Assembly: GCF_000240165.1 (NCBI RefSeq)
Contig: NC_017586.1
Location: forward strand, 4,601,228-4,665,227
DNA: 64,000 nucleotides
Reading direction: 5' to 3'
Source: Streptantibioticus cattleyicolor NRRL 8057 = DSM 46488
GTDB taxonomy: Bacteria; Actinomycetota; Actinomycetes; Streptomycetales; Streptomycetaceae
In this document: piece by piece, positions 3,121 through 61,415 of the stretch
How the letters are laid out: every line of letters starts with the position of its first letter
How positions within the stretch are numbered: the first letter of the stretch is position 1
The notes under the pieces: model-generated
What the model was told of the DNA's origin: nothing
The model's database searches: none
The model's input: only the letters and a program-made list of their open reading frames with translations
Made by a program: the position numbers and the translations under genes

Positions 3121-3202
3121 GGCGGGGGACTTCCTTGTCGGCTCGCTGAGGGTGGTACGGGGGCTGGGGGCGGCGGGGGAGACCCGCCACCCCCATGAAG
3201 TG

Positions 3203-4462
3203 TTACAGATTCGGGTACAGCGGGTACTTCGCCGCGAGCGCGGCCACCCGGGCACCCAGCGCCTGGGCGTCGTACGACGGCTTGAGCGCCTCGGCGATCA
3301 CGTCGGCGACCTCGCGGAAGTCGTCCTCGCCGAACCCGCGGGTGGCCAGCGCCGGGGTGCCGATCCGCAGCCCCGAGGTGACCATCGGGGGACGCGGGTC
3401 GTTCGGGATGGCGTTGCGGTTGACGGTGATCCCGATCTCGTGCAGCCGGTCCTCGGCCTGCTTGCCGTCGAGCTCGCTGGCGCGCAGGTCGACCAGGACC
3501 AGGTGGACGTCGGTGCCGCCGGAGAGCACGGCGACGCCCGCCTCGGCCGCGTCCGGCCGCGACAGCCGCTCGGCGAGGAGCTTGGCGCCGGCCAGCGTAC
3601 GGCGCTGCCGGTCCTTGAACTCCTCGCTCGCCGCGACCTTGAAGGCCACCGCCTTGGCGGCGATCACATGCTCCAGCGGACCGCCCTGCTGGCCGGGGAA
3701 GACCGCGGAGTTGATCTTCTTGGCCAGGTCGGCGGTGGACAGGATCACCCCGCCGCGCGGACCGCCCAGCGTCTTGTGGGTGGTGGTGGTCACCACGTGG
3801 GCGTGGGGCACCGGGTTCGGGTGCAGCCCGGCGGCCACCAGACCGGCGAAGTGGGCCATGTCCACCATCAGGTAGGCGCCCACCTCGTCGGCGATCCGGC
3901 GGAACGCCGCGAAGTCCAGCTGCCGCGGGTACGCCGACCAGCCGGCCACGATCAGCCGCGGGCGGTGTTCCTTGGCCAGCCGCTCCACCTCGGCCATGTC
4001 GACCAGGCCCGACTCGCCGTCCACGTGGTACGGGACCACGTCGTACAGCTTGCCGGAGAAGTTGATCTTCATCCCGTGGGTCAGGTGGCCGCCGTGCGCC
4101 AGGTCCAGGCCCAGGATGGTGTCGCCCGGCTTGAGCAGCGCGAACATCGCCGCCGCGTTGGCCTGCGCGCCCGAGTGCGGCTGGACGTTGGCGGCCTCGG
4201 CGCCGAACAGCTCCTTGACCCGGTCGATGGCGATCTGCTCGGTGACGTCGACGTGCTCGCAGCCGCCGTAGTACCGGCGGCCGGGGTACCCCTCGGCGTA
4301 CTTGTTGGTCAGGACGGAGCCCTGGGCCTCCATGACGGCCACCGGAGCGAAGTTCTCCGAGGCGATCATCTCCAGGGTGGACTGCTGGCGGTGCAGCTCG
4401 GCGTCGACCGCGGCGGCGACCTCGGGGTCGAGCTCGTGCAGGGAGCTGTTGAGAAGCGACAT
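3203..4462 (-). CDS. glyA: Serine hydroxymethyltransferase
   Basis: PLP-dependent interconversion of glycine plus 5,10-methylene-THF with serine plus THF. The protein is 419 residues, the standard length. The PLP-binding lysine lies in [14 protein letters not shown], and the N-terminal LEMIASENF and [18 protein letters not shown] segments are typical of bacterial SHMT. It starts 19 bases after the gcvH stop, so the two are cotranscribed. In this operon the methylene-THF made by the glycine cleavage system can be used with a second glycine to make serine, which SdaA then deaminates. Confidence 0.97.
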
Positions 4463-16636: not shown

Positions 16637-17791
16637 GTGATGTCCGAGTTCCCCGGTGCCCCCACCGGTCCCCGCAACGGTTCCCGGCTGAGGGTCCTGG
16701 CCGCCATGTCCGGCGGCGTCGACTCCGCCGTGGCCGCCGCCCGCGCCGCCGAGGCCGGCCATGACGTGACCGGCGTCCACCTCGCGCTCTCCGCCAACCC
16801 GCAGTCGTTCCGCACCGGCGCCCGCGGCTGCTGCACCATCGAGGACTCCCGCGACGCCCGCCGCGCCGCGGACGTCATCGGCATCCCCTTCTACGTCTGG
16901 GACCTCGCCGAACGCTTCCGTGAGGACGTCGTGGAGGACTTCGTCAACGAGTACGCGGCCGGCCGCACCCCCAACCCCTGCCTGCGCTGCAACGAGAAGA
17001 TCAAGTTCGCCGCGCTGCTGGACAAGGCGATCGCGCTCGGCTTCGACGCGGTCTGCACCGGCCACTACGCCAAGATCGTCACGCGCCCGGACGGCTCCCG
17101 CGAACTCCACCGCGCCAGCGACATGGCCAAGGACCAGAGCTACGTCCTCGGCGTGCTCGACGAGCGCCAGCTCGCCCACGCGATGTTCCCGCTCGGCGAC
17201 ACCGTCACCACCAAGGAGAAGATCCGCGCCGAGGCCGAACGGCGCGGCCTGGCGGTGGCCAAGAAGCCCGACAGCCACGACATCTGCTTCATCGCCGACG
17301 GCGACACCCAGGGCTTCCTGGCCCGCCGGCTCGGCACCGCCGAGGGCGACATCGTGGACACCTCCGGCGCCCGGCTCGGCACCCACAACGGCGCCTACGG
17401 CTTCACCATCGGCCAGCGCAAGGGCCTGCGCATCGGCACCCCCGCCCCGGACGGCAAGCCCCGCTACGTCCTGGACATCTCCCCGGTCGACAACACCGTC
17501 ACCGTCGGCCCCGCCGAGGCGCTGGACGTGGTCGCCCTCACCGCCATCCGCCCCCGCTGGTGCGGTGCGCCTCCGGCGGGGCCCGGCCACTACACCGCCC
17601 AACTCCGCGCCCACGGCGACGACGTCCCCGTCACCGCCGAACCCTCCGGCGACGAACTCCGCGTCACCTTCGCCGCCCCGGTCCGCGGCGTCGCCCCCGG
17701 CCAGGCGGTCGTCCTCTACGACGGCACCCGAGTCGTCGGCTCCGCCACCATCGCCGCCACGGAACGGCGGTCGCCGGCCCCCGCCGGTTAA
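16637..17791 (+). CDS. mnmA: tRNA-specific 2-thiouridylase MnmA
   Basis: Makes 2-thiouridine at the wobble position (U34) of Lys, Glu and Gln tRNAs, using ATP and persulfide sulfur. The protein is 384 residues. The PP-loop is [10 protein letters not shown] near residue 25; the catalytic cysteine is in [12 protein letters not shown] and the second in [15 protein letters not shown] is the conserved interface motif. Start choices are GTG 16637 (six bases after a TACCCT box) or ATG 16640. Its stop overlaps the stop of the convergent DUF397 gene by three bases. Confidence 0.96.
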
Positions 17792-17994
17792 GCCCGTTCC
17801 GCCACGCCCCCGTCGAACTCCCCGTGCTTGATGCCCCGGATGAGGGCGTGGAGGGCGGTGGGGGTGGTGGTGAGGATGGCGTGGGGGGTGGTGCTTTCGC
17901 GTATGGCTATGTGGTGGTCGGTGGCGGCGAGTTGGACGCAGTTGTTGCCGCCGTTGCCGCAGTAGGAGGACTTCTGCCAGTCGATGTGGGACAT
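17788..17994 (-). CDS. DUF397 domain protein
   Basis: A 68-residue DUF397 protein with the family signature [18 protein letters not shown] and [16 protein letters not shown]397 proteins usually lie directly downstream of an XRE/DUF5753 regulator, as here: the regulator stop and this ATG are only 11 bases apart, with AAGGAA as the ribosome site. They are thought to act with the regulator in developmental or antibiotic control (compare BldB-like and WhiJ-like systems), but the mechanism is not established. Confidence 0.88.
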
Positions 17995-18005
17995 GGCCGT
18001 TCCTT

Positions 18006-18860
18006 TCACATCTCGCGTGCGATGGACCGCATGACGTCACGGGACTCGTCGGGCGGGAGAGCCATCTTCTCCAAGGTGTCGAGGACGGCACGGTAGTTGG
18101 CCAGTGGCGTTGGCGAGTCGATGAACGCGGGGCCATGGGCCGTGTCGAGGTGCACGGTATCGAGTTGGGGGACGGGACCGTCGGCGTAGAGGATCGACTG
18201 CCCTGCCATGGGGATGCCGCCTGCATCGAACGGGATGACAAGCAAGGTCACGTAATCGCGTTCCGACTCTTTTACGAGGTATTCGAGCTGGGCGCGAGCC
18301 AGCTCTCGGCCGCCGACCGGGATGCGCAGCGCCGCCTCATGGATGATGCCGACGTAGGGGGTCGGCTCTTCGCGTTCGAAGATCGTCCGCCGACCGAGCC
18401 GGTGTGCCACACGCAACTCGACCTGGAGGCGCGGCATCTTCGGCACGGTGAGCTCGAAGATCGCGCGTGCGTGGTCTTCGGTCTGGAACAGTCCAGGCAG
18501 GTGCACCGTCTGGGCGGTGCGGATCCGTTTCGCGTGGAACTCCACCTCGGACAGGTCGAGGAACCCGTCCGGCAGCCTGCCACGGTACTCGTCCCACCAG
18601 CGGTGCTCGCGCCGATTCGCCGCCAGGTCCGCCAGAGCGTTGGTGAGATGCTGGTCAGGACACTTGTAGTTGCATGTGAGCTGCCGGACCCGGTCCTCGC
18701 TGATGCCGGTGCGTGCCGCCTCGATGTTGGAAATCATCGTGCGGTCGGCGCCCAGTAGTTCGGCTGCCTGCTGGATCGAGATCCCGGCTTGTTCGCGGAG
18801 TCGGCGCATCTCCGTGGCGAGTCGGCGCTGGCGTGCCGTAACGGCCTTTCGAAGAGCCAT
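18006..18860 (-). CDS. XRE-family regulator with DUF5753 domain (WhiJ-like)
   Basis: A 284-residue regulator. Residues 1-75 hold a helix-turn-helix of the Cro/XRE type (RQRRLATEMRRLREQAGISI then QQAAELLGADRTMISNIEAA). From about residue 95 to the end is a DUF5753 domain with typical VHLPGLFQTEDHARAIF, VTLLVIPFDAGG and SILYADGPVPQLDTV segments. The ATG at 18860 is preceded by AGAGGAA. It forms an operon with the DUF397 gene and is divergent from an ATPase gene, the standard three-gene actinobacterial layout. A damaged second copy of this layout is at 54.0-54.8 kb. Confidence 0.92.
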   Translation of the reverse strand: MALRKAVTARQRRLATEMRRLREQAGISIQQAAELLGADRTMISNIEAARTGISEDRVRQLTCNYKCPDQHLTNALADLAANRREHRWWDEYRGRLPDGFLDLSEVEFHAKRIRTAQTVHLPGLFQTEDHARAIFELTVPKMPRLQVELRVAHRLGRRTIFEREEPTPYVGIIHEAALRIPVGGRELARAQLEYLVKESERDYVTLLVIPFDAGGIPMAGQSILYADGPVPQLDTVHLDTAHGPAFIDSPTPLANYRAVLDTLEKMALPPDESRDVMRSIAREM

Positions 18861-19055
18861 GGTTCCTCTCTTGGTCTGCGCCCGGTCAGTCTTGTCATGA
18901 CGGCCCTGCCGGTCCAGTGAGCCCTCGAATTTTTCACTCATTCGTGTGGCCAGGCTCATTCATGAGCCGAATCCGCCATAGCGTGTGACGCAGGCCACTC
19001 GGCCATGTGGCCGCCATCAACGAAAGCGCACCGCTGGCCCGGAACCGGAGGTCCG

Positions 19056-19493
19056 ATGAGCCCGCTCACCCCCATCCCGTTCGCCGCCCCCTGGGAGTAC
19101 GAACTCCGCTTTCCGCGCGACCCGCGCGGCCCCGGTATCGCCCGCGCCACGCTCCGCGCCGTGCTGGCCGCGCACGGCCTGGGCGAACTGGTCGACTGCG
19201 CAGAGCTGTTGACCTCGGAACTGACGACCAACTCGGTGCGCTACGCGTACGGGTTCGCCACCGTCCGGCTGAAGTGGCTTCATCCCGTGCTGCGGGTCAG
19301 CGTGTGGGACACCAGCCCCGCCTTCCCCGTCCACGCCGTTCCCGACGCGGAGCGCGACGGAGGCAGGGGGCTGCACATCCTCGACCTGCTCGCCGACCGA
19401 TGGGGCGGCCTGGCCATCGGGGAGGAACCGTTCGGGATGGCGGGGAAGACGGTGTGGTTCGAGCTGTGGTGGCCGGGGGCAGGGGTGGCTTGA
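19056..19493 (+). CDS. HATPase-type ATP-binding protein (RsbW-like anti-sigma fold)
   Basis: A 145-residue GHKL ATPase domain protein. The N box is ELLTSELTTNSVRYA; the G1 region is VSVWDTSPAFP and the G2 region DGGRGLHILDLLADRWG, ending with KTVWFEL. Such single-domain proteins resemble RsbW/SpoIIAB anti-sigma kinases and are very numerous in Streptomyces, often beside XRE/DUF397 pairs. GGAGG lies five bases upstream of the ATG. The partner protein is unknown; it may act with the divergent regulator. Confidence 0.88.
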   Translation: MSPLTPIPFAAPWEYELRFPRDPRGPGIARATLRAVLAAHGLGELVDCAELLTSELTTNSVRYAYGFATVRLKWLHPVLRVSVWDTSPAFPVHAVPDAERDGGRGLHILDLLADRWGGLAIGEEPFGMAGKTVWFELWWPGAGVA

Positions 19494-19603
19494 GAGGGGA
19501 AGAGGATGCCGAAATTGCGACGTCCGGGCCTCTTCGTCGACGCGGGATTTGTATGATGAACCCTCACCAGCAGCGTCCGTGAGCGGGGACGGGGGCCCAG
19601 CAC

Positions 19604-20329
19604 GTGGCGATCAATCTGCCGCACTGGCTCGCCGAGGTCGTCAACCTCCTCGGCTTCAACTGGCCCGAGATCGACGAGGACCAGCTCAGAGAAGCGGCCA
19701 AGGGGCTGCGGTCGTACGCGGACGAGTGCCAGCGGTCGCACGACGTCACGCACGGCGTCGTCACCGGTGACCTGCGGAAGGTCTACGCGTCCGAGTCGTA
19801 CACCGCGCTCGTCCAGGTGTGGGCCGGGCAGACCCAGGGGCACATGCACACCCTCATCGAGGGATGCCGGCTGCTCGCCGACGGGCTGGATGTCGCCGCG
19901 ACCGGGGTGGAGGCGATGAAGGACGAGTGCATCGCGCAACTCACCGTCGCGGCGGCGGAGTTGATCGGCGACCAGGTGGGAGCCGTGGTCACCCTCGGCC
20001 TGTCCGAAGCCGCCGCCGTCGCCGAGATCGAACTCCAGAACCGCCTGCTCAACGGCATCCTCCAGCGTTTCGAGGCCGAGGTCGTCGGCTCCCTGGTCAA
20101 CCGGCTCATCGGTCCGCTGAAGGAACAGGTCGACCGGGCCGTGGAGAAACTCCTCCTGGAAGAGACCGCCCACCTGGCCGTCGGCGGCCCGCCACCCACG
20201 CTCAAGCTCGACACCAACGCCATGCGCGCCCACGCCGGGACCATCGGCAAACAGGCCGAGGCCAACCTGACCGGCGGCCGGGCCTTCGGCGCCAAGATGC
20301 AGGCACTGACGTTCACCACGGGGGGCTGA
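19604..20329 (+). CDS. Helical WXG100-like protein upstream of the RHS toxin
   Basis: A 241-residue protein from a GTG start, almost entirely alpha-helical. The first 100 residues have the look of a WXG100/LXG-like secretion domain: NWPEIDEDQLREAAKGLRSY, then VYASESYTALVQVWAG. The middle has hydrophobic-amphipathic helices (LIGDQVGAVVTLGLSEAAAV). Such proteins typically stand immediately upstream of large polymorphic toxins in actinobacteria and are thought to help their export through a type VII-like system. Only eight bases separate it from the RHS gene. Exact family not assigned. Confidence 0.65.
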   Translation: MAINLPHWLAEVVNLLGFNWPEIDEDQLREAAKGLRSYADECQRSHDVTHGVVTGDLRKVYASESYTALVQVWAGQTQGHMHTLIEGCRLLADGLDVAATGVEAMKDECIAQLTVAAAELIGDQVGAVVTLGLSEAAAVAEIELQNRLLNGILQRFEAEVVGSLVNRLIGPLKEQVDRAVEKLLLEETAHLAVGGPPPTLKLDTNAMRAHAGTIGKQAEANLTGGRAFGAKMQALTFTTGG

Positions 20330-20337
20330 GCGCGCAC

Positions 20338-23300
20338 GTGAGCGACATCGTCAACAAGCTCGTCAAGCCCACCGTCGAATTCCTCGACCACCTCGCCCGC
20401 AAGGTCCCCCAAGCCCTCGGCAAGGGCCACCACCGCATCGCCCAGCACATCCACAAAGCCGCCGACCACTTCGACAAGGTCGAAGCCGACCTCGCCGCCA
20501 AGGCCAAGTCCCACCACCCGCACGAGGCCCACCCCCACATCCCGGAAGCCACCGCCGGAGCCGGCGCGGCAGCGGCGGCGGGAGCGAAGGGCGCGGAGAA
20601 GCGCGCTGCGGAGAATGCCGGGCGAGGGATGCGTCCCCACGACGGCGCCAAGGAATCCGTCCCCGGCTCCGAGAAGACGTGCAAGAACGACCCGGTGGAC
20701 GTCGCCACCGGCGACATGGTCATGGCCGCCGTGGACGTCGAGCTCCCGGGCGCGCTTCCGCTGGTCCTGGAACGCACCCACATCTCCTCCTACCGGCACG
20801 GACTGTGGTTCGGTCCCTCATGGATCTCCACCCTCGACCAGCGTCTCCAACTCGACGCCGACGGAGTGGTGTTCGCCACCGCCGACGGCATGCGACTGGA
20901 GTACCCGCCGCCGCGCGGTGACGCCCCCGTACTGCCGGTGCGCGGCCCGCGCCGACCCTTGAGCTGGGACGGCGCCCCCAACGCCCCGATGAGCGTCGCC
21001 GACCCCCGGACCGGCGAAGCCCTCGTCTTCGACCACCCCCGCCCCGCCCCCGACGTCATCGGCGGCGTCGTCCTGCGCCTGACCGCGATCGAGGACCGCA
21101 ACGGCCGCCGCATCGACATCACCTACGCCGACGACGACACCCCCGCCCTCATCACCCACCACGGCGGCTACCGCATAGCCGTCGACCGCCACCCCGACCT
21201 GCCCCGCATCACCGCGTTACGCCTCCTCGACACCGACGGCCCAGGCACCGACACCACCCTCGTCCGCTACGGCTACGACACCTCCGGCGACCTCACCGAA
21301 GTCTTCAACTCCTCCGGCCTCCCCCTCCGCCTCACCTACGACGACGACCACCGCGTCACCAGCTGGACCGACCGCAACGGCACCACGTTCAACTACACCT
21401 ACGACCCCTCCGGCCGCGTCATCCGCACCACCGGCACCGACGGCTTCCTCTCCGCCACCTTCACCTATGACGACACCACCCGCACCACCACCTTCACCAA
21501 CTCCCTCGGCCACACCTCCACCTACCAGCACAACGACGCCTACCGCCTGATCCGCGAGACGGACCCGCTGGGCAATGTGACGGTGCGGGAGTGGGACGAG
21601 AGCAACCGGTTGTTGGTGGGCGTGACGGATCCGCTGGGGCGGACAACGAGGTTCCACTACGACGAGGCGGATAATCTCGCCCAGCTCGTCCACCCTGACG
21701 GCTCCGAGATAGCGATCGAATACAACGAGCTTTGTCTTCCTACCCGCGTCACTGGGGAGATGGGGCAGGTCTGGCGGCACACCTACGACGAGCGGGGCAA
21801 CCGACTGCTGACGATCGATCCGGCTGGCGCTCGCTCGGAGTTCGCCTATGACGAGGCAGGTGCCCCGGTGGCGGTGACCGACGCGCTCGGTGCGGAGCAC
21901 CGGGTGACGAACAACCCCGCCGGGTTGCCTATCGCGATCACCGACCCATCGGGCCACACCACCCGATGCGTCCGGGACGTCTTTGGACGCATTACCTCGG
22001 TCGTCGATCCCCTTGGCGGCGAGACTCGGCAGGTATGGTCCGCCGACGGCAAGCCTGTGGAGCACACTCTCCCGGATGGCTCTGCCGAGCTGTGGGAGTG
22101 GGACGCCGAAGGCAACCTGGTCTCCCACACCGAGGCCGGGGGCGGTGTCACCTTGTTCGAGATCACACACTTCGACCTGGTCTCGGCGCGCACGGGGCCG
22201 GACGGGGCACGGATCGAGTTCGGATACGACACCGAATTGCGGCTCACGAGTGTGACGGACGCGCGCGGGCTCACATGGACCTACGACTACGATCCGGCTG
22301 GCCGCTTGACCGGTGAAAGGGATTTCAACGGTTCGACGACCCACTACGCCTACGACGCCGCGGGACAACTCACGGCACGCACCAACTCACTCGCACAGAC
22401 CGTGCATTACGCATACGACTTGCTCGGAAACGTCACATACCAACACGGACCGCATGGTGCGGCGCGGTTCACCTATGACAGAAGCGGCCTGCTGGTGCGA
22501 GCGACCAATGAGGACGCGGATCTGGAACTCGTCCGCGATCCGTTGGGCCGGGTACTGGCCGAAGTCTGCAACGGTCGAAAGCTTGCCAGCACGTACGACC
22601 GACTCGGCCGTCGAGTGGAGCGGCGTACCCCGACCGGTGTGGTCAGCCACTGGGTGTGGGACGCGGGCGGGCACCCCGTCTCATTCACCTCGGCCGGCCA
22701 TCATGTCGCGTTCGTCCATGACGGCGTTGGCCGAGAGGTCGAGCGTGTCTTCGGCCAAGAGATCCGACTCCGCCAGACATGGAACGAGATGCAGCAACTC
22801 ACGGCCCAGATCCTCACTCGCCCAGCGCAACCAGCCGACCGCGAGGCGCGTGACGGTGGCCAGCGTCGGCAGACGCTCCGCCACCGTGCTTTCTCGTACC
22901 GTCCGGGTGGCCATCTCACCTTGATCGACGACCACGTCGGTGGAGAGCGCCGCTTCACCCTCGATTCCCTCAGTCGGGTCACAGAGGTGACAGGGACCAA
23001 CTGGTCCGAGAGATATGCCTACGATGCGGCCGGCGATGTTGCGCATGCCAGTACCCCGGTGCGCCATGACTCCGACGGCGACCGTGTCAGCAGCCGTGGC
23101 CTGCTGCGAAGAGCGGGACGTGTCCGCTATGAATACGACGCGCAAGGCCGCGTGGTGCTAAGGCAGAAGACGCGGTTGTCGAGAAAGCCTGACACCTGGC
23201 GCTACGTGTGGGACGCGGACGACCAGCTCACCGAGGTCACGACTCCGGACGGTCGGGTCTGGCGATACCTGTACGACCCCATGGGCCGTCGGGTGGCCAA

Positions 23301-24234
23301 GCAGCAAGTGGCCGCTGACGGCGAGAGCCTCCAGGAGGAGACGCGCTTCACCTGGGACGGAACCGACCTCGTCGAACAGACCACCTGGACGGACTCGGGC
23401 GCCGAGGTGGTCACCCTCACCTGGGAACGCGACGGCGTACGTCCGCTCGCACAGACGGAGCGCAGAAGCCTGGCAGAGATTCCTGACCATGTCGTCGATG
23501 AACGCTTCTTCGCGATCGTCACAGATCTGGCCGGCACACCGACTGAATTGGTCTCCGAGTTCGGGGACGTGGCCTGGCAGCGCGATGCCACTCTTTGGGG
23601 CACCCCCGTCGACTCACAGGCATACGCCGCGGATACTCCGCTGCGGTTCCCCGGCCAGTACTTCGACCCGGAAACACAGCTGCACTACAACTGCTTCCGG
23701 TACTACGATCCATCCACCGCCCTCTACACCAGTCCTGATCCGCTGGGCCTGACGGCAGGGCCGAATCACCGTGCCTATGTGCCCAATCCCCTCGAGTGGA
23801 TCGACTATTTAGGTCTGGCTTCGTGCACGGCCAACGCGGACAGGCTCCGAAAGAACATGGCTCGGGAAGGGCGAGTGGTAGGCCCCGGTCAGGCAGCCGC
23901 TCACATCGTGCCCTCGAACGGCAGAAACTTCCGACAGTGGCGATGGGGCAAGAAGAGCAGCGACCTTCTCGACAGGTACGGGATCGACATCAACGATCCA
24001 GCCAACGGCATTCCCTTGGGGCACCCGAAGCCTCACAACTTCACGCACCGAGGGCCCTTCCTCCAACGCCTCAACGCCCGGCTGGTCCGGGTCGTGGAAC
24101 AAGGCCAGGCGGACGGTCTCGGCGCACGGGCCATCCGGACACGGCTCCGTCAGGAGTTGCGTAGTATCGGGCGGCAGATCGAGCATGAACTCGCGACCGG
24201 CCGACCCGGGCCGAGCGCTTACTGGACGGCGTGA
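20338..24234 (+). CDS. RHS-repeat polymorphic toxin with C-terminal AHH-type nuclease domain
   Basis: A 1298-residue protein. Residues 1-115 form a helical, His/Ala/Lys-rich N-terminus. A DUF6531 segment starts near residue 118 (CKNDPVDVATGDMVM), then many YD repeats run through about residue 1080 and build the RHS cage. The RHS core ends with SPDPLGLTAGPNHRAYVPNP and WIDYLGLAS. The variable tip, about 136 residues from 1163, has AAHIVPSNGRN, YGIDINDPANGIPLG and a later HNFTH-RGPFLQRLNARL, which match the AHH branch of His-Me finger nucleases. The histidine just before IVP is kept, but the first His of the usual HH pair is Ala. The GTG at 20338 is the first start after the preceding gene. Composition changes abruptly near 21.57 kb. 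Confidence 0.9.
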   Translation: MSDIVNKLVKPTVEFLDHLARKVPQALGKGHHRIAQHIHKAADHFDKVEADLAAKAKSHHPHEAHPHIPEATAGAGAAAAAGAKGAEKRAAENAGRGMRPHDGAKESVPGSEKTCKNDPVDVATGDMVMAAVDVELPGALPLVLERTHISSYRHGLWFGPSWISTLDQRLQLDADGVVFATADGMRLEYPPPRGDAPVLPVRGPRRPLSWDGAPNAPMSVADPRTGEALVFDHPRPAPDVIGGVVLRLTAIEDRNGRRIDITYADDDTPALITHHGGYRIAVDRHPDLPRITALRLLDTDGPGTDTTLVRYGYDTSGDLTEVFNSSGLPLRLTYDDDHRVTSWTDRNGTTFNYTYDPSGRVIRTTGTDGFLSATFTYDDTTRTTTFTNSLGHTSTYQHNDAYRLIRETDPLGNVTVREWDESNRLLVGVTDPLGRTTRFHYDEADNLAQLVHPDGSEIAIEYNELCLPTRVTGEMGQVWRHTYDERGNRLLTIDPAGARSEFAYDEAGAPVAVTDALGAEHRVTNNPAGLPIAITDPSGHTTRCVRDVFGRITSVVDPLGGETRQVWSADGKPVEHTLPDGSAELWEWDAEGNLVSHTEAGGGVTLFEITHFDLVSARTGPDGARIEFGYDTELRLTSVTDARGLTWTYDYDPAGRLTGERDFNGSTTHYAYDAAGQLTARTNSLAQTVHYAYDLLGNVTYQHGPHGAARFTYDRSGLLVRATNEDADLELVRDPLGRVLAEVCNGRKLASTYDRLGRRVERRTPTGVVSHWVWDAGGHPVSFTSAGHHVAFVHDGVGREVERVFGQEIRLRQTWNEMQQLTAQILTRPAQPADREARDGGQRRQTLRHRAFSYRPGGHLTLIDDHVGGERRFTLDSLSRVTEVTGTNWSERYAYDAAGDVAHASTPVRHDSDGDRVSSRGLLRRAGRVRYEYDAQGRVVLRQKTRLSRKPDTWRYVWDADDQLTEVTTPDGRVWRYLYDPMGRRVAKQQVAADGESLQEETRFTWDGTDLVEQTTWTDSGAEVVTLTWERDGVRPLAQTERRSLAEIPDHVVDERFFAIVTDLAGTPTELVSEFGDVAWQRDATLWGTPVDSQAYAADTPLRFPGQYFDPETQLHYNCFRYYDPSTALYTSPDPLGLTAGPNHRAYVPNPLEWIDYLGLASCTANADRLRKNMAREGRVVGPGQAAAHIVPSNGRNFRQWRWGKKSSDLLDRYGIDINDPANGIPLGHPKPHNFTHRGPFLQRLNARLVRVVEQGQADGLGARAIRTRLRQELRSIGRQIEHELATGRPGPSAYWTA

Positions 24235-53563: not shown

Positions 53564-53581
53564 GGCCCCCTTTCCGGCAGG

Positions 53582-53623
53582 CCACGGCCCCGGTCACCCC
53601 GTGAGGGGCGGCCGGGGCCGTGG
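53582..53623. terminator. Bidirectional terminator between serA and the DUF1330 gene
   Basis: CCACGGCCCCGG (53582-53593) and CCGGGGCCGTGG (53612-53623) form a 12-base stem, with an inner ACCCC/GGGG pairing in the loop. It lies between two convergent genes and can serve both. Confidence 0.75.
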
Positions 53624-53630
53624 CGTTCTC

Positions 53631-53975
53631 TCATACGGGGAAGGGCAGCTTGGCGATGGCCTCCTCGGCCCGGTACCCCTCGGGCACCCCCTCCGCCAGG
53701 ATCACGTCCATCACGATGTTCCGCGTCCGCAACGGCAGGATCTCCTGGTACTCCGGCGACGCGTACCACCGCCGCGCGCTGTCCATGTCCGGGAACCCGA
53801 TCACGATCAGCCCACCCGGCCACGCCCCCTCCAACACCTCCCGCACCCCGTCATGGATCAGGAACCGCCCCCCGAACCCCTCCAACGTCCCCTCGATCCG
53901 CCGCATGTACTCCGCGATCTCCGGGCTCGGGTTGACGGTCTCCCGCACGTAGGCGATGGCGTAGGCGGCGGACAT
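53631..53975 (-). CDS. DUF1330 domain protein
   Basis: A 114-residue ferredoxin-like (dimeric alpha/beta barrel) protein. Family signature: VIGFPDMDSARRWYASPEYQ, and an N-terminal AYAIAYVRE strand. DUF1330 proteins resemble EthD-type and monooxygenase-like small proteins; no activity is established. The ATG at 53975 is preceded by GGGAG. It is convergent with serA. Confidence 0.9.
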   Translation of the reverse strand: MSAAYAIAYVRETVNPSPEIAEYMRRIEGTLEGFGGRFLIHDGVREVLEGAWPGGLIVIGFPDMDSARRWYASPEYQEILPLRTRNIVMDVILAEGVPEGYRAEEAIAKLPFPV

Positions 53976-54045
53976 GGGCTGCTCCCGTCGGTTCGGTGTG
54001 GCGTGTGTCTCCGACGGTAGGCGCCCGGCCGGGCGGCGGAATCAG

Positions 54046-54249
54046 TCACGCATCGGTATCACGCGCGTCGAACCTACCGGCCTTGACGGCACGCAGGAAC
54101 GCCCCGAGGGCGGCGGGGGTGGTGGTGAGTACGGTGTCGGGGGCGTCGCTCTCCCGAAGGAGGACGGCCTCCGGCCGGGGGGCGGATATGCCCAGGCAGT
54201 TGGAGGCTTCCTCGCAGTACGAGGAGGTCTGCCAGTCGAACGTGGTCAT
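54046..54249 (-). CDS. DUF397 domain protein of a collapsed regulator module
   Basis: A 67-residue DUF397 protein (FDWQTSSYCEEASNCLGI, then VLLRESDAPDTVLTTTPAAL), complete by comparison with the copy at 17788-17994. It sits just downstream of the remnant of an XRE/DUF5753 gene. With its regulator missing the DNA-binding domain, it may be expressed without a partner or be a relic itself. Confidence 0.82.
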   Translation of the reverse strand: MTTFDWQTSSYCEEASNCLGISAPRPEAVLLRESDAPDTVLTTTPAALGAFLRAVKAGRFDARDTDA

Positions 54250-54261
54250 GGTGAGGCCCCT

Positions 54262-54567
54262 TCACAGGTCGCGAACGACGGCGTTGACGAACTCCCGGGA
54301 CGCCTGCGGCTGCAGAGCGCGGGTCTCGTGACGGTCCAGGATCGTCCGGTACTTGTCCAACTGTGCCTCCGCGGTGAGGAACAGTGGTCCCATGGCGGTG
54401 TCGAGCTGGACGGTGTCCAACTGGACCACCGGCCCGTGCGCGTACATCACCGTCTGCCCGGCTGCGGGGAAGGCCCCGGCCGCGAACGGGATCACGAGCA
54501 CGGTGATGTGCTCGTGCTCGCTCATCCGGATGATGTGCTGGAGCCGCCTCCGGGCCACGGCCCGGCC
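54262..54567 (-). pseudogene. C-terminal remnant of an XRE/DUF5753 regulator
   Basis: About 101 residues remain (GRAVARRRLQHIIRM, then HITVLVIPFAAGAFPAAGQT, VMYAHGPVVQLDTVQLDT), which align with the last third of the intact DUF5753 protein at 18006-18860. The whole helix-turn-helix and most of DUF5753 are absent. An ATG at 54588 could start a 108-residue product, but the first seven codons lie in sequence that belongs to the opposite-strand ATPase remnant. Similarity stops right where that remnant begins. Confidence 0.85.
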
Positions 54568-54818
54568 GCTACTCCGCCGGCCCCGCATGGCTGCGCCTGC
54601 GATGGGCCGGGCGCCGACTGCGCGTCGGTGTCTGCGACACCAGCCCCGAACTCCCCGCGTTCCCCGACGCCCACTGTGCCCCCGTGGACGCGGACGGCGG
54701 GCGCGGACTGCTGCTCGTCCGGTTGTGCGCGGACGACTGGGGAGGGCATGCGATCGGGGACGAGTTGTTCGGGGTCCCGGCGAAGGTGATCTGGTTCGAG
54801 TTGGTGCCGGAGTGGTGA
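54567..54818 (+). pseudogene. C-terminal remnant of an RsbW-like ATPase
   Basis: In one frame this reads RYSAGPAWLRLRWAGRRLRV, then VCDTSPELPAFPDAHCAPVD, DGGRGLLLVRLCADDWGGHA and AKVIWFELVPEW, ending at a TGA at 54818. It matches the second half of the ATPase at 19056-19493, including G1 and G2 boxes, but the N box with its metal-binding residues is gone. It lies head-to-head against the DUF5753 remnant with no intergenic region left. Confidence 0.85.
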
Positions 54819-54886
54819 CGGCAGTCAGTAGACCGGCGATTACGTGTGTCGGATGTCCGTGCGCCCGCGCCCGTAGTCGTTTCCGA

Positions 54887-55180
54887 TCAAGTGATGGGCC
54901 CCTTGGGAGGATTGGCCGCGCCGAGCGCTTGGTCGGTGATGCTCATCATGGTGTTGCCGTGCTGGAGGCGCTCGATGAGACCGTCTATGGCGGTCTGGCG
55001 TCCCTCGACCACCGCTCGGGTCAGAAAAGCGACGGGGCCCAGAGCTTCGTAGATGCTCTTGCCCACCTCGGTGACCGACGGAGGAGCGGGCGGCCGTACG
55101 GGCTTGGGGCTTGCGTCTTTGATCGCGTGGCACAGATTGGCGATTCCCGCATCGTTGATCTTCAGTCGGTCCGTGGCCAC
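54887..55180 (-). CDS. Small helical protein divergent from the T7SS-type toxin
   Basis: A 97-residue protein from a GTG start with GAGGGG upstream. It is mostly helical: LKINDAGIANLCHAIKDA, SVTEVGKSIYEALGPVAFLT, TAIDGLIERLQHGNTMMSIT. Size and character suggest a WXG100-like secretion partner or chaperone, but there is no clear WXG motif. It is divergent from the toxin gene with a 115-base gap. Family not recognised. Confidence 0.6.
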   Translation of the reverse strand: MATDRLKINDAGIANLCHAIKDASPKPVRPPAPPSVTEVGKSIYEALGPVAFLTRAVVEGRQTAIDGLIERLQHGNTMMSITDQALGAANPPKGPIT

Positions 55181-55295
55181 GTGTCCCCCTCGCGAATGCG
55201 GATCAAATCCGGCCGCCCGGTAAGTTTTTTGTGTGATCGTCCGAACAACTGTAGCCTGCGGACCCTCGTCGTGCGCTGGAGGGGGAGGTCGTACC

Positions 55296-56642
55296 GTGGG
55301 CGGCAGGCCGACGGACTGGGAACTGGTCGGGCGCGATGACGATCCGACGCCGGGGGACCTGGACGTTCTCAAAGACTGGGAGAACTATTTCCGCCGGCGG
55401 GCGGATGATGCCGACTTCTGCTTGAGCGCCTTGCGCAAGGTTCAGGGAAACGTGCACACGCTGGATTTGGACGGCTCGTGGCTCACGGCACTGTGGGGCC
55501 GGATCGACTACCTCGCGGACGCGTTGCTGCCGGAAAAGGCGGTTCACGAGGGCACGGCCGATGCGTTCAGAACGTTTCGCGGTGCCTTGCAGGACATCCA
55601 GCACCAAGCGGACCAGGCGCTCGACCAGGCCCGCGAGGCCCACCGCGACAAGACCGCGGCGACAGTGCGACTGCAAGGGCTCGCTGGACAGTCCGCCGCC
55701 AAGCCGTCGGACTCGACGGAAGCCGCCCTACGCAACTCGACGCAGAACGCGATCGACGACGCCGACGGTCGCCTGAGGCGGGCCAAGGGCCAGGTCGACG
55801 ACGCCGCTTGGCGTTACGGCGTGGCTGCTCAGCAGGTCGTCACGGCCTTGCGGCAATCCGAGGAATCCCTCGGCAGAACGATATTCGCTCCGCCGTCCCC
55901 CGACCGGAACACCTCATCGCCGGGACAGCCGAGTTTTCTCCACCGCTTCGCCGACCAAGCCCTCACCGACATCTACGTCCTCGCCGGGATCACAGCCGGC
56001 ACTCTGCGCGGAGCCGCCGGCATCGGCGAGCAGATCGACCTCATGATGCTCGGCGCCCCGGAACTGCGCGGCCCCGGTGCGGCCTTCGCCCTGGCCGACG
56101 GTTCGGCACCCACCGGCTTGGCCGACGCCTACGCGTTCGGGGCGAATCCGTACAAGGGGATCGACTTCGGGGGAGGGAGGCTTGACGACTCCTGGCTGTT
56201 CAAGACCTACGACACCGATCCGGCGGTAGTAGGATCGGCCAAGGGTAAAACACTCCGCTCCCCGAATTCCCGGCACACAATCATGGGAGCGAAGAGCGGT
56301 CCCGCCAAGGAGAAGAACACCATTATCCTGCCGGGACTCGGTTCCGCGGTGGACGAGGACATTGCCGAGATCGCGGCAGGCCGTGCCAAATGGAACGAGG
56401 ACGCACAGCGTTACGAGATCAATGGCAGAACCTACGCGGTGGAACCCAGCGGCACTATCATGCCGGGGTCCGGATCGGGCTTCGTGCTGCTGGACCGGGT
56501 CGAGTATTCCGCGCTGAAGGAGATCGTGAAGGCGGGTGGCGATCTGGACAAGTGTCAGCAGTTCAAGCACAAGCCGGATTTCGTCGAGAATCCGGAAAAG
56601 ATCCAGCGGGTTTATGAGCTGTATAGGACGTACTATCCGTGA
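55296..56642 (+). CDS. Type VII-like secreted polymorphic toxin, toxin domain unassigned
   Basis: A 448-residue protein. The N-terminal region (residues 8-130) is a T7SS-signal-type helical domain: PGDLDVLKDWENYFRRRADD then WLTALWGRIDYLADALLP. A long coiled or helical middle (about 105-190) follows, then a linker and ADQALTDIYVLAGITAGTLR. The last 160 residues, from about 289, form a distinct domain containing SPNSRHTIMGAKSGPAKEKN, YEINGRTYAVEPSGTIMPGS and FVLLDRVEYSALKEIVKAGG. I do not recognise this domain. GGAGG precedes the GTG by eight bases. The stop overlaps the next gene by four bases, the usual toxin-immunity arrangement. Confidence 0.75.
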   Translation: MGGRPTDWELVGRDDDPTPGDLDVLKDWENYFRRRADDADFCLSALRKVQGNVHTLDLDGSWLTALWGRIDYLADALLPEKAVHEGTADAFRTFRGALQDIQHQADQALDQAREAHRDKTAATVRLQGLAGQSAAKPSDSTEAALRNSTQNAIDDADGRLRRAKGQVDDAAWRYGVAAQQVVTALRQSEESLGRTIFAPPSPDRNTSSPGQPSFLHRFADQALTDIYVLAGITAGTLRGAAGIGEQIDLMMLGAPELRGPGAAFALADGSAPTGLADAYAFGANPYKGIDFGGGRLDDSWLFKTYDTDPAVVGSAKGKTLRSPNSRHTIMGAKSGPAKEKNTIILPGLGSAVDEDIAEIAAGRAKWNEDAQRYEINGRTYAVEPSGTIMPGSGSGFVLLDRVEYSALKEIVKAGGDLDKCQQFKHKPDFVENPEKIQRVYELYRTYYP

Positions 56643-57496
56643 CGTACGACTTGTATATTCCTGAAGCCGATCTGTTCGGTCGGCTCAGTGACTTCCTCTC
56701 CCGGATCTTCCATGTCCCGGAGCAGGACGTCCTGGTGTGGGAGGAGTCGGCGATGGACGATCGGAGATGGGAGGCGCTGTCCAGCTCGCTCGTCAACTGC
56801 CAACTTGAGGCGGTGCACGGTGACGTGGCGTGGCACTTGTCCGTTTACGGACTGGACTCTGTGACTCCGCAGCCCACCGAGGAAGAACTTTCGGTGGACT
56901 TCGCCCGGGAATTCGGCGTGCCGGTGCTGTTCCCGAGCCCGACGCCGTTCCCCAGCGTCTGCCGACTGGCGACTCCCCGGGGTGAGGTCACCAATGTGCG
57001 GATCATTGATCCTCAGACTGACGAGGACCCCTTGGTGATCGCCGACGTCGAGATGCCGGTGCCGGAGCTCCCGAAGGCGAAGGTGAGCCGGTTTCCGGAG
57101 ATCATCAAGGAACTCCGGCTTCCGACCCCCGTCACCGACTCCGCGGCGGAATCACTCGGCCTGCCCGCCGGGGGCGATCCGCGCGACGCCCTGAGACTTC
57201 TGCGGGCGTGGGAGCAACTGGCCGTACGGATGGCGGAGGGCTGGCCGCCCAGTGGTTGGTACCCGCCCCGGATGTACGCGGAGGATCTGGGGGCCCGGGA
57301 CAAGCTGGAGGCGTTGATCCCGAAGCTCCCCGAGGACGAGGCGGCGGTGGTGCGGGGCGCCATGGCCCGTGTCGACGAACGCTACCGCGCCCTCACCGTC
57401 GAGGGCTCCCCGGAGGACGTACCCCAGGGCGCCTGGTACTGGCGTCGCCGGCCCGATCCCGTGCCGTGGGGAGAGGACGGGGACGGGGGTTACTGA
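56639..57496 (+). CDS. Candidate immunity protein for the T7SS-type toxin
   Basis: A 285-residue protein whose GTG overlaps the toxin stop (GTGA). The first half is acidic with MTYDLYIPEADLFGRLSDFL, VLVWEESAMDDRRWEALSS and AWHLSVYGLDSV; the C-terminal half is helical with a Pro-Trp-rich GWPPSGWYPPRMYAED segment. The tight coupling makes it the obvious antidote candidate, but the family is unknown to me. Its stop overlaps the convergent lipoprotein gene by seven bases. Confidence 0.65.
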   Translation: MTYDLYIPEADLFGRLSDFLSRIFHVPEQDVLVWEESAMDDRRWEALSSSLVNCQLEAVHGDVAWHLSVYGLDSVTPQPTEEELSVDFAREFGVPVLFPSPTPFPSVCRLATPRGEVTNVRIIDPQTDEDPLVIADVEMPVPELPKAKVSRFPEIIKELRLPTPVTDSAAESLGLPAGGDPRDALRLLRAWEQLAVRMAEGWPPSGWYPPRMYAEDLGARDKLEALIPKLPEDEAAVVRGAMARVDERYRALTVEGSPEDVPQGAWYWRRRPDPVPWGEDGDGGY

Positions 57497-58125
57497 CGGG
57501 AGGGGAGGGGGTCGGGGGAGGCCCAGAAGGGGGAGTCTTTGCGGGGGGTGAGGGGGGCGGGGTCGGGTGGGTTGCCGGGGGTGCCGGGGGTGCCCTTGGG
57601 GTAGGTCATGGCGGAGGGCTTGACGCAGGGGGAGGAGACGTCGAAGAAGATGTTGCCCTTGTCGCCGACGCCCAGCGACACCGCGAAGCCGTCCGGGGTC
57701 TGTGCGTCGATGGCCGGCATGTCTTTGTCGGTGTCCACGCTGACCATCCGGTAGCCCCGTTGTTGCCAGTGGCGCTGGACCAGGCCGAGGAAGGCCCCGC
57801 GGCGCTGCGGGGACACCGCGGTGGTGACGTTCCGGCTGCGCTGGACGTTCGTCGTGCCGGTGGGCCGGTTGAGCCCATCACTGCACGCCATCTGCCCCGG
57901 CGTGTAATACGCCCAGGAGACTGGGGGTTTGATGGCCCCCAGAGTGTCGTCCAGGATCTCCTCGGCCCGGTTACCGGCCTGCTGCATATCCATCGAGATC
58001 CGCTCCTTCGGGGATGCCTTCGGCGCAGTCCGTCCCTCGTCGGCGCATCCGGCCGTCAGTACGGCCAGCAGCACGACCGGAAGGGCGGCGGACAGGGATC
58101 GGCGAAGGTGGTGTCTGGTGCTCAT
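57490..58125 (-). CDS. Putative lipoprotein
   Basis: A 211-residue protein with a lipoprotein signal peptide: RRSLSAALPVVLLAVLTAGC, lipobox LTAGC with Cys at about residue 27. The rest is a small mixed domain (residues 50-175) with two further cysteines. It starts four bases inside the end of the alpha/beta hydrolase gene (ATGA overlap), so it is translated together with it. Pro-rich C-terminal tail. Function unknown. Confidence 0.82.
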   Translation of the reverse strand: MSTRHHLRRSLSAALPVVLLAVLTAGCADEGRTAPKASPKERISMDMQQAGNRAEEILDDTLGAIKPPVSWAYYTPGQMACSDGLNRPTGTTNVQRSRNVTTAVSPQRRGAFLGLVQRHWQQRGYRMVSVDTDKDMPAIDAQTPDGFAVSLGVGDKGNIFFDVSSPCVKPSAMTYPKGTPGTPGNPPDPAPLTPRKDSPFWASPDPLPSRQ

Positions 58126-59843
58126 CGAGGCTCCGCCGGTTTGATCGCGTCGCCGTGGCCTGTGACGATCTTGGCGATGTTGCGCAATGAGCCCCCATTG
58201 TTGTCCGCGTCCGGGCTCGGGTCGAAGTACACGGTATGCGCCGGTAGGTTGCCGTGGAGCAAGCCCGTGAGTCCGGTGTCCTGACCGGGGGCGACGCTGA
58301 AGTCACGGGCACCGAAGGCCCGACTCGCCGGGTCGGTTCCGAACCAGAGCTTGTGCTCGCCGAGCCCGTGTCCGGGTACGACGTATTCCAGCGGGTCGGG
58401 GGAGGGAAGCTCGGTCACCGGGTCGTTCGCCGCGGCTGCGGCGTAGACGTGTCCGGCGGGTAGCCCGAGGTCCGACGCGCGGTCGACTCCGACGCCCGGA
58501 CTGCCGACCAGGATCACGTCGTCCGCCGGTAGGCCGCCCGGCTGCTGGCTCGCCTGGCCCACGGTGAGGGACCCGTACGAGTGCCCCAGGGCGGTGATGT
58601 GCGGTGCGCCGCTGTCGTGCGTGGCGCGGATCCCTTGGAGGAGCCGGTCGTAGGCCACCGCACCGCGCTGAGCGTCGCCGTCCGACATGACAGCCAGGTC
58701 GTCCAGCCCCGCCCCCTGCAACTGTGGGGCGTCATAGCCCAGCCAGGTGATCGAGGCGGTGGAACCGTACTTCTGGGCCATCCGCGCGATGTTGCGCGCC
58801 CTCTCCACGTCCGCACTCGCGAAATGCCCATCCAACCTCGTATTCAACCCCGGCACATACGCCGACACGTTCTCCGCCGTGTCCGGGTTGCCGAACGAGA
58901 CGATGGCGCGGCCGTTGCCCTCGTCGCTGAGGCCGAGGAGGTAGGGGCGGGGGGAGCCGGGGTGGGAGAGGGTTTGCTGGAGGCCTTGGAGGCCGTCGAT
59001 CTTGGCGCGGAGGGATTCGGCGGTGGAGCCGTCGGCGCTGCTCAGATCAGTTTTGAGTTTGCTCAGCAGGACGGGGAGGTAGGCGCGGTTGGCGGTGTCG
59101 CGGTCGGCGGCGGGGATGCCGTCGCGGTTGCCGAGGACGGCGGGGTAGTCGCGCAGGAGGTCCTGGCGCAGGCCGGCGGGGAGCCCCTGCCCCCAGGTGG
59201 TGACGTCCTTGGGCGCCGCGTGGGCATCGGGCATGCCGATGTCGGCGAGGACGTCGTCGCGGAGTTCGCGCGCGGAGGAGAGTTCGAGGACCCCGGCGCC
59301 CCAGCCGCCGCGGCGGCAGCGTTCGGCGGCCTCGGTGAGCAGGCGGAGGGTGTCGACGCAGGCGGTGTCGGCGGCGTCGGCGTCCTTGAGCACCGCGGCG
59401 ATGCCCTGCGCCAGGTCGCCGACGTTCTGCGCCCGGACCCGTTCCAACTGGCCCAGCGTGGAAGGCGACATGACGTCGGTGTGGATCTCGGGGGCCGACA
59501 CCGAGCCGTCGTCGTGCACCGTGAAGCCGGCCTCGTGGGCCTCGCCGAGCAGGCGCTCGAGGCGGCCCTGGTGGGCGAGGAGGATCTCGGCGGCGGCGGT
59601 CAGGGCGGTGGCCACCGCCTGGAGTTCCTGGCCGGCGGCGAGCAGGTCGGACTGGGTCCGGCCCAGCCGGTCGGCGGCGCTCTCGGCGCCCAGGCCCTGG
59701 TTCCACGCCTCCGCGACGCGGCGTTGGAGGTGGGTGCCGCAGTCCTTGGCGTGGCCGGCGAAGCGGCCGGCGAGACGGTCCCAGGCGTGGGCGGCGTCGA
59801 GGAGGAGCTGCGGCCTGGCGTCCCGCAGGGTGGAGACCCGCAT
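58122..59843 (-). CDS. DUF1023-type alpha/beta hydrolase with WXG-like N-terminal domain
   Basis: A 573-residue protein. The first 220 residues are helical and WXG/LXG-like (RDARPQLLLDAAHAWDRLAG, then HLQRRVAEAWNQGL). The C-terminal hydrolase has the nucleophile elbow ALGHSYGSLTVG and downstream ILVGSPGVGVDRASDLGL, typical of DUF1023. Proteins of this kind are common in actinobacteria beside small WXG-like genes; the substrate is unknown. The ATG at 59843 begins two bases after the upstream gene's stop. Confidence 0.87.
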   Translation of the reverse strand: MRVSTLRDARPQLLLDAAHAWDRLAGRFAGHAKDCGTHLQRRVAEAWNQGLGAESAADRLGRTQSDLLAAGQELQAVATALTAAAEILLAHQGRLERLLGEAHEAGFTVHDDGSVSAPEIHTDVMSPSTLGQLERVRAQNVGDLAQGIAAVLKDADAADTACVDTLRLLTEAAERCRRGGWGAGVLELSSARELRDDVLADIGMPDAHAAPKDVTTWGQGLPAGLRQDLLRDYPAVLGNRDGIPAADRDTANRAYLPVLLSKLKTDLSSADGSTAESLRAKIDGLQGLQQTLSHPGSPRPYLLGLSDEGNGRAIVSFGNPDTAENVSAYVPGLNTRLDGHFASADVERARNIARMAQKYGSTASITWLGYDAPQLQGAGLDDLAVMSDGDAQRGAVAYDRLLQGIRATHDSGAPHITALGHSYGSLTVGQASQQPGGLPADDVILVGSPGVGVDRASDLGLPAGHVYAAAAANDPVTELPSPDPLEYVVPGHGLGEHKLWFGTDPASRAFGARDFSVAPGQDTGLTGLLHGNLPAHTVYFDPSPDADNNGGSLRNIAKIVTGHGDAIKPAEPR

Positions 59844-59845
59844 CG

Positions 59846-60172
59846 TCAACGCCCGTCCACCGTCAGGCCGGCGAAGTCGTGTCCGCGCCGCTGGTCCTCC
59901 TGGTGATAGGCGCAGGCCGCGTCGGCCAGGGCGTCACCGGTCGCCGCGACCAGGTCGGAGAGCGAACGCAGCGCGGCGGACCAGGCGTCGCCGCAGTCGC
60001 GCAGGGCCCGGGCGCTCTGCCAGCCGGCGAGCCCGTCGACCGCCGAATCGGTCGGTCCGTGGACGGACTTGGCGTCCTCGTGCACCGCCTGGGCCACGTC
60101 GTGCGCCGCGTCCCCCGCCGCGCGTACCAGACCGGGCTCGATCCGGAAACCTCCGGACGGCCCCCCCCACAC
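59846..60172 (-). CDS. WXG100-like protein
   Basis: A 108-residue helical protein: EPGLVRAAGDAAHDVAQAVH, then LAGWQSARALRDCGDAWSAA, with a W-Q-S turn at the helix junction as in ESAT-6/WXG100-type proteins. It is the first gene of a three-gene minus-strand unit. The start is uncertain: the GTG at 60172 has only GGTGA upstream, while a better ribosome site (GGGGGG) precedes a GTG at 60188 in another frame. A run of eight Gs lies between the two. Confidence 0.7.
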   Translation of the reverse strand: MWGGPSGGFRIEPGLVRAAGDAAHDVAQAVHEDAKSVHGPTDSAVDGLAGWQSARALRDCGDAWSAALRSLSDLVAATGDALADAACAYHQEDQRRGHDFAGLTVDGR

Positions 60173-60263
60173 CGGTCGTCACCGACACGCGATCCCCCCT
60201 GTGTTCCTCCGGTCGCGTCCAGGGACCACAGGGTAGCGGTAGGGCGTCACCGCCGTGGCGGCG

Positions 60264-61415
60264 TCACAACCGCGCCGACTTCAGCGCCATGTGCAGCAGC
60301 AGGCGGTCCTCGCCGTTGTCGAGGTCGAGGCCGGTGAGGCGTTCGACGCGGGAGAGGCGGTAGTAGAGGGTCTGGCGGTGGATGGCGAGGGCGGCGGCGG
60401 CGCGGCCGGCCTGGCCGGCGCAGTCGAGGAAGACCTCGGCGGTGTGGGCGAGTTCGGCGTGGCCGGGGGTGAGCAGGGGGAGCAGGGCGGGGTCGGTGGC
60501 CGGGGGGAGGGCGGTGAGCAGGCGGTAGGGGCCGATGTCGCGCCAGTGGGCGACCGGGCCGAGCCGGGGTTCGGCGCGGGCGGCGCGGGCCGCGCCGGCC
60601 GCCTCCCGCCAGGCGGCCTGGAGGTCGCCGAGGCCGGAACGCGGGTCGCTCACCCCGGCCGCCGGGCCGGCCGTGCGGGCCGATTCCAGCAGCCGGACGG
60701 CGGCGGCGCGGGCCGGCGCCGGCACGTCCGCGGAACGCAGCCGGATCAACGCGGCCAGCCCGCCCGACGGCACCGCGCACAGCGCCGCCGCGGCCGGCAC
60801 CGTCCGCACCGCCGGCAGCAGATCACCCTCGTCGTCGGCGCCCGGGCTCTCCCACGGCGCCACGCACACCAGCGAGAACGCGCCGTCGGCCGCCCGGCCC
60901 AGCGCCGCCCGCAGTGCGCCCTGCGCCTCCTCCCGGCGTTCCCGCGAACCGGTCAGCAGCGCCAGCAGTTCCCGCCCGAGGTCGGCGCCGGCCCGGGCCT
61001 CCCGTGCCAGCAGCGTGCCGATCCGGGTCACCACGCCCATGGCCGGGCCGAGCTGGCCGGGGTCGGGGACGTCGTCGTCGAGCAGCCACACGTACCCGTA
61101 GACCACGCCGCGGTGGCGGACCGGCAGGCAGATCCGGCCGCGGATGCCGGCCCGCGGGTCGGCCGGGATGCGTACCGGGTCGTGCGCGTGGGCGATGCCG
61201 AACGACTCGAACCAGGAACGCACCTCGGTGGTCGAACGGCGGGTCAGGATCGAACGGGTGCGGATCGGGTCCATCGCGCCCGCGTCGCTCTCGTGGGCGC
61301 AGAAGGCGATCAGCCGGAAGTCGCGGTCCTCCAGCGTCGCGGGGGCGCCGACCAGCGCCGAGACCTCGTCGACGAGTGCCTGGTAGTCGCCGTATTCCCG
61401 GTGGTCGCCGCGCAT
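60264..61415 (-). CDS. PucR-family transcriptional regulator of proline catabolism
   Basis: A 383-residue regulator of the PucR/CdaR type. Residues 10-150 form a GAF-like sensing region ([19 protein letters not shown], then [19 protein letters not shown]). The C-terminal helix-turn-helix is [20 protein letters not shown]. It is divergent from the proline dehydrogenase gene, and such regulators activate proline use in Streptomyces, so that role is likely. I chose the ATG at 61415 on similarity; GTG 61421 has better spacing to a GAGGGA ribosome site. Confidence 0.87.

Follow-up and report, generated by a model that had tools for sequence, protein, structure and literature searches.

Loci in which bldB paralogues (DUF397) lie beside whiJ paralogues (HTH-Xre) and abaA paralogues (HATPase_c) are a known type, and genomes that have bldB paralogues carry a median of 19 of them (PMC10294661). 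In Streptomyces venezuelae, WhiJ9 binds direct repeats between its own gene and the divergent iosA and activates iosA, the bldB9 promoter sits within the coding region of whiJ9, and BldB and BldB9 form hetero-oligomers (PMC10294661). The whiJ clusters of Streptomyces are also treated in PMC4255298: in S. coelicolor, complete deletion of whiJ has no obvious phenotype, and co-deletion of whiJ suppresses loss of its small partner. XRE-DUF397 pairs such as Scr1/Scr2 (SCO4441/SCO4442) were once proposed to be type II toxin-antitoxin systems (PMC6262351, PMC10364602); PMC6262351 presents SCO4441/SCO4442, a putative toxin-antitoxin pair, as a regulator of antibiotic production. Here we describe a bldB-whiJ-abaA paralogue locus of Streptantibioticus cattleyicolor that has very probably decayed through one contiguous loss of about 0.9 kb from an intact module.

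One complete gene beside two headless remnants

The window is the whole 64,000-nucleotide stretch of the S. cattleyicolor genome that was analysed, and positions without a locus handle refer to it. The remnant locus consists of the following features:

54046-54249, minus strand: DUF397 (BldB-paralogue) gene, complete, 67 aa (Pfam DUF397, homologous-module alignment)
54257-54263, minus strand: GAAGGGG, likely ribosome-binding site of the DUF397 gene (sequence reading)
54262-54567, minus strand: C-terminal third of a WhiJ-type DUF5753 regulator, 101 residues (Pfam DUF5753, subfamily profile)
54565-54569, no strand: probable deletion junction, where DUF5753 ends at Gly of its conserved GGR motif and the ATPase starts at Arg (profile alignments, 23-module comparison)
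54567-54818, plus strand: C-terminal half of an AbaA-type HATPase_c protein, 83 residues (subfamily profile, start-codon scan, family search)

The DUF397 gene matches Pfam DUF397 over positions 2-55 of 55 (E 3e-11), and its product can be aligned end to end with the DUF397 proteins of homologous modules. Its likely ribosome-binding site shares bases with the stop codon of the DUF5753 remnant. With gene and site both kept, the protein may still be expressed. A scan of the locus for consensus promoters and terminators, which is poorly suited to the GC-rich promoters of such DNA, found none.

The regulator remnant scores 142 bits against its own subfamily profile and matches Pfam DUF5753 over positions 80-176 of 178 only (E 3e-17). 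Among the 24 DUF5753 matches in the genome it is the sole truncated one, the other 23 beginning at profile position 1-9. It lacks the helix-turn-helix and the first ~190 residues, and would presumably be unable to bind DNA. The ORF list includes an ATG-started frame of 108 aa that contains the remnant and reaches 54588 on the minus strand. The first 7 codons of this predicted frame are antisense to the ATPase, and its ATG, lying in that antisense sequence, is to all appearances accidental.

The ATPase remnant scores 135 bits against a profile of homologous modules, the match beginning exactly at the Arg encoded at 54567; in the frame tested it gave no Pfam match. It lacks the N box (E-L-x-T-N) and everything upstream of it, and a start-codon scan of its first 39 codons found no ATG, GTG or TTG before 54684. 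Because N box, start codon and promoter are all missing, this remnant is almost certainly dead. Frames are unbroken in both remnants, with a third-codon G+C of 0.88-0.92. The event looks recent because the frames are intact and third-codon G+C is high; some continuing constraint, though, would likewise leave both remnants with open frames.

Regulator and ATPase homologies meet without filler

Alignment with 23 intact homologous modules placed the limit of DUF5753 homology at the second Gly of HEAALRMQFGG-R. The remnant begins GRAVARRRLQHI, and the HEAALR stretch, which is highly conserved in homologues, is missing. On the ATPase side the match sets in at the Arg of SELVTNA-x-R[YH]S, three residues past the N-box Asn, so that the N box (E-x-x-x-N) ends three residues ahead of the join. 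The two homologies meet at 54565-54569 with zero filler, their codon ends overlapping by one base, 54567. The exact junction base is ambiguous over a few bases, and a few bases may be shared at the junction, as the Ser preceding the remnant's Gly may itself once have been Gly. In the 23 intact homologous modules, the gap between the two junction-equivalent points was 661-1139 bp (median 918, interquartile range 894-967), and it was 927 bp in an intact module elsewhere in the window (17788-19493), as against zero in the remnant. A second tally covered the 20 modules listed as matches in each of the two protein searches (396 genomes): 19 of the 20 had 662-1140 bp between the matches, and only the window copy had no gap.

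These results agree closely with the sequence-only reading of the locus, which had described a complete DUF397 gene followed by the last third of a DUF5753 regulator on the minus strand and, abutting it head-to-head, the second half of an RsbW-like ATPase on the plus strand, with both homologies ending at about 54567 and with the order and orientation of the intact module at 17788-19493. The strand layout is also that of the 23 homologous modules. The C-terminal half of an ATPase was read correctly, but its type is AbaA, as in these loci. The same reading had attributed the arrangement to a single deletion that took the HTH, the divergent promoters and the ATPase N box, and the order, the orientation, the abutting ends and the lack of filler support this.

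Both genes are cut at the same point and keep their orientation, with nothing inserted between the pieces. A single deletion of ~0.9 kb is the simplest account. The parent would have encoded a DUF397 protein and an HTH-DUF5753 regulator on one strand and an AbaA-type ATPase divergently. The lost segment of ~0.9 kb (range in homologues 0.66-1.14 kb) would have started at the GGR motif of the regulator, taken in the half that binds DNA and the divergent promoters, and ended just beyond the N box of the ATPase. It would have gone in one event, probably by end-joining over no more than a few shared bases. The DUF397 protein would have been left as an orphan, possibly still made. Its transcription could start within the surviving part of the regulator gene, much as the bldB9 promoter of S. 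venezuelae lies within whiJ9, or could be read-through of an upstream transcript. Because complete whiJ deletion is silent in S. coelicolor and loss of whiJ there suppresses loss of the small partner, analogy suggests that a deletion of this kind would be tolerated.

Paralogues and the search for an intact parent

The intact module in the window served as comparator:

17788-18009, minus strand: intact comparator, DUF397 (Pfam, ORFs)
18006 to about 18860/18959, minus strand: intact comparator, HTH+DUF5753 (Pfam, ORFs)
19005 or 19056 to 19493, plus strand: intact comparator, divergent HATPase (Pfam, ORFs)

Among 12 modules of the same genome, this copy scored highest for both pieces (DUF5753 262, ATPase 193; next-best modules 174 and 111). 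Its identity to the remnant locus is 48% for DUF5753, 58% for the ATPase and 47% for DUF397; it is the closest paralogue in the genome but no recent duplicate. A paralogue 48-58% identical is too divergent for a mis-join of collapsed repeats, and the assembly has two contigs, of which one, 6.28 Mb long, contains the junction; an assembly artefact at 54565-54569 is therefore extremely improbable.

We searched the ATPase piece without reference to the regulator and scored the partner DUF5753 genes afterwards. Among the best ATPase-selected loci, 19 distinct ones had a divergent full-length DUF5753, with a mean score to the remnant of 244 versus 98 for own-genome modules. Ranked over all three genes, the best modules were L119, L122 and L123, with 51-61% identity for every gene; the best homologues in 396 family genomes were 62% (regulator) and 60% (ATPase) identical. 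The DUF397, DUF5753 and ATPase pieces are alike in the module type they resemble, so there is no need to invoke two unrelated sources, and these likenesses favour a single parental module. The case falls short of proof: the modules whose DUF5753 is most similar frequently pair it with another, less similar ATPase type (mean score 90); exchange of partners between DUF5753 and ATPase, to judge from these pairings, does occur. Such inconstant pairing, together with tandem modules known in relatives (L014 and L059), would accommodate a chimera, formed when two side-by-side modules recombined and the 3' part of one regulator was joined to the 3' part of the other module's ATPase. This would require two neighbouring modules, however, and the pieces are all of one module kind, the same own paralogue is closest for both DUF5753 and ATPase, and order and orientation match a single module. 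We consider such an origin very improbable and retain the single deletion.

The fused arrangement, which as a conserved gene would have spoken against a deletion, was found nowhere else: searches of 396 family genomes with each half returned no fused copy, and no DNA match crossed the junction in 61 relatives, the relatives compared all belonging to other genera. A search of the named genome collection returned only a 57-residue DUF5753 match, in Streptomyces ureilyticus. Because no intact orthologue was found in 18 relatives or in the 396 genomes, we infer both the parent sequence and the exact deletion endpoints.

A variable insertion site next to serA

After serA, relatives carry a PucR/CdaR-type regulator and then leuB, the names PucR/CdaR and leuB coming from by-eye reading of the proteins. 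This order delimits one further feature:

53564-60266, no strand: genome-specific stretch between serA and the PucR/CdaR-type regulator, bearing the remnant (serA - regulator - leuB order in relatives)

The gap from serA to the regulator is 6.7 kb in the source genome, where it holds a DUF1330 gene, the remnant module and a toxin-like locus, versus 0.1-9.4 kb in relatives. The spot is a variable insertion site in the family. The earlier hope of finding the intact module at this site was disappointed: none of the 18 relatives examined has an intact orthologue, or any DUF397/DUF5753 module, next to serA, and one relative locus (L042) has a lone ATPase there.

Immediately after each of the two modules of the window come polymorphic-toxin-like genes (17788-24234 and 54046-57496). 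We considered whether such modules mark polymorphic-toxin loci and rejected the idea: near 20 further DUF5753 loci examined in the genome, the proteins of the window's toxin loci have no convincing relative, the one match being weak (E 1e-5).

Decay of related modules

Broken members of the family turn up repeatedly in relatives: 12 of the 277 DUF5753 matches in 13 relatives begin beyond profile position 37. Some of these are interrupted DUF5753 genes with the N-terminal piece nearby (L149, L150, L158 and L159), and others are headless DUF5753 genes with DUF397 kept, in L148, L157 and L156, the last with a DUF5753 N-terminal piece 2.7 kb upstream. A tail-less DUF5753 match led to a head-to-head collapse in L161 (G008, 2496-3208), where an ATPase piece on the minus strand and a headless DUF5753 on the plus strand lie 91 bp apart and are followed by a partial DUF397. 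Like the remnant, L161, L148, L156 and L157 have lost the DUF5753 N terminus and retained DUF397, and L161 also keeps the divergent ATPase piece. They differ from it in being independent events in unrelated modules, and in none of them do two headless genes abut directly. We treat the headless copies as independent decay events because they are only distantly related to each other. In L014 (G007, 942-2629), a DUF5753 C-terminal half and a DUF397 gene lie in tandem directly behind an intact module.

The headless DUF5753 starts within a few residues of the GGR motif in L156 (3146-3436), L157 (3170-3475) and the window (54567). With three copies only, this is possibly a GC-rich breakpoint hotspot near that motif. 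A shared cut near DUF5753 profile position 73-81 in several headless copies was rejected: the sequences are unrelated and the coincidence is weak. In L152, homology appears to extend further upstream than this cut.

A headless DUF5753 adjoining DUF397 in L148, L156 and L157 could also be taken to mean that the 108-aa DUF5753 protein and the DUF397 protein are both made and act jointly, for example by modulating other whiJ-type modules. This reading is compatible with the same deletion and disputes only the inertness of its product; it draws further on the ATG-started 108-aa frame with high third-codon G+C and no frameshift, on the good ribosome-binding site before DUF397 and on the hetero-oligomerisation of BldB paralogues (PMC10294661). 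However, the other headless copies are mutually only 20-43% identical with differing upstream sequence, several have stops just upstream, as expected of independent pseudogenes, and no orthologue was found by which constraint could be judged. A functional pair is thus unlikely. Rather more speculatively, minimal orphan pairs of a headless WhiJ C-domain and a BldB paralogue might act in trans on other bldB/whiJ modules and be a recurrent, selected by-product of family turnover, which we regard as quite unlikely.

The remnant module is real and correctly read, and it is ordinary decay within a large gene family of two dozen genome copies. Although of an ordinary kind, it is the cleanest example of module decay found among the examined loci. 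As a natural example of bldB-whiJ-abaA family turnover, it would have lost the DNA-binding half together with the promoters and the start of the ATPase at once, with the small partner spared, and it allows one to ask, in a natural setting, whether a BldB paralogue left as an orphan retains any role. For annotators it is a caution that neither remnant should be named a working regulator or ATPase.

Comparison with known systems

The remnant locus leaves the understanding of the bldB-whiJ-abaA system unchanged. It shares with these loci the small DUF397 protein, the DUF5753 C terminus, the divergent HATPase_c gene, the existence of many paralogues per genome, and the conserved order and orientation, as in 23 homologous modules. 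It differs in having lost the HTH half of the regulator, the intergenic promoter/operator region and the ATPase N box, leaving only the DUF397 gene complete: there is no regulator with both XRE HTH and DUF5753, no HATPase_c with an N box and, with no sequence between the remnants, no intergenic region for promoters or regulator binding. The locus resembles the Scr1/Scr2-type XRE-DUF397 pairs in that a regulator C terminus is followed immediately by a DUF397 gene. By contrast with those pairs, the XRE DNA-binding domain is missing, so regulation in the published manner would not be expected, and the XRE/HTH partner upstream of DUF397 that characterises the proposed type II toxin-antitoxin systems is here represented by a remnant from which the HTH is absent.
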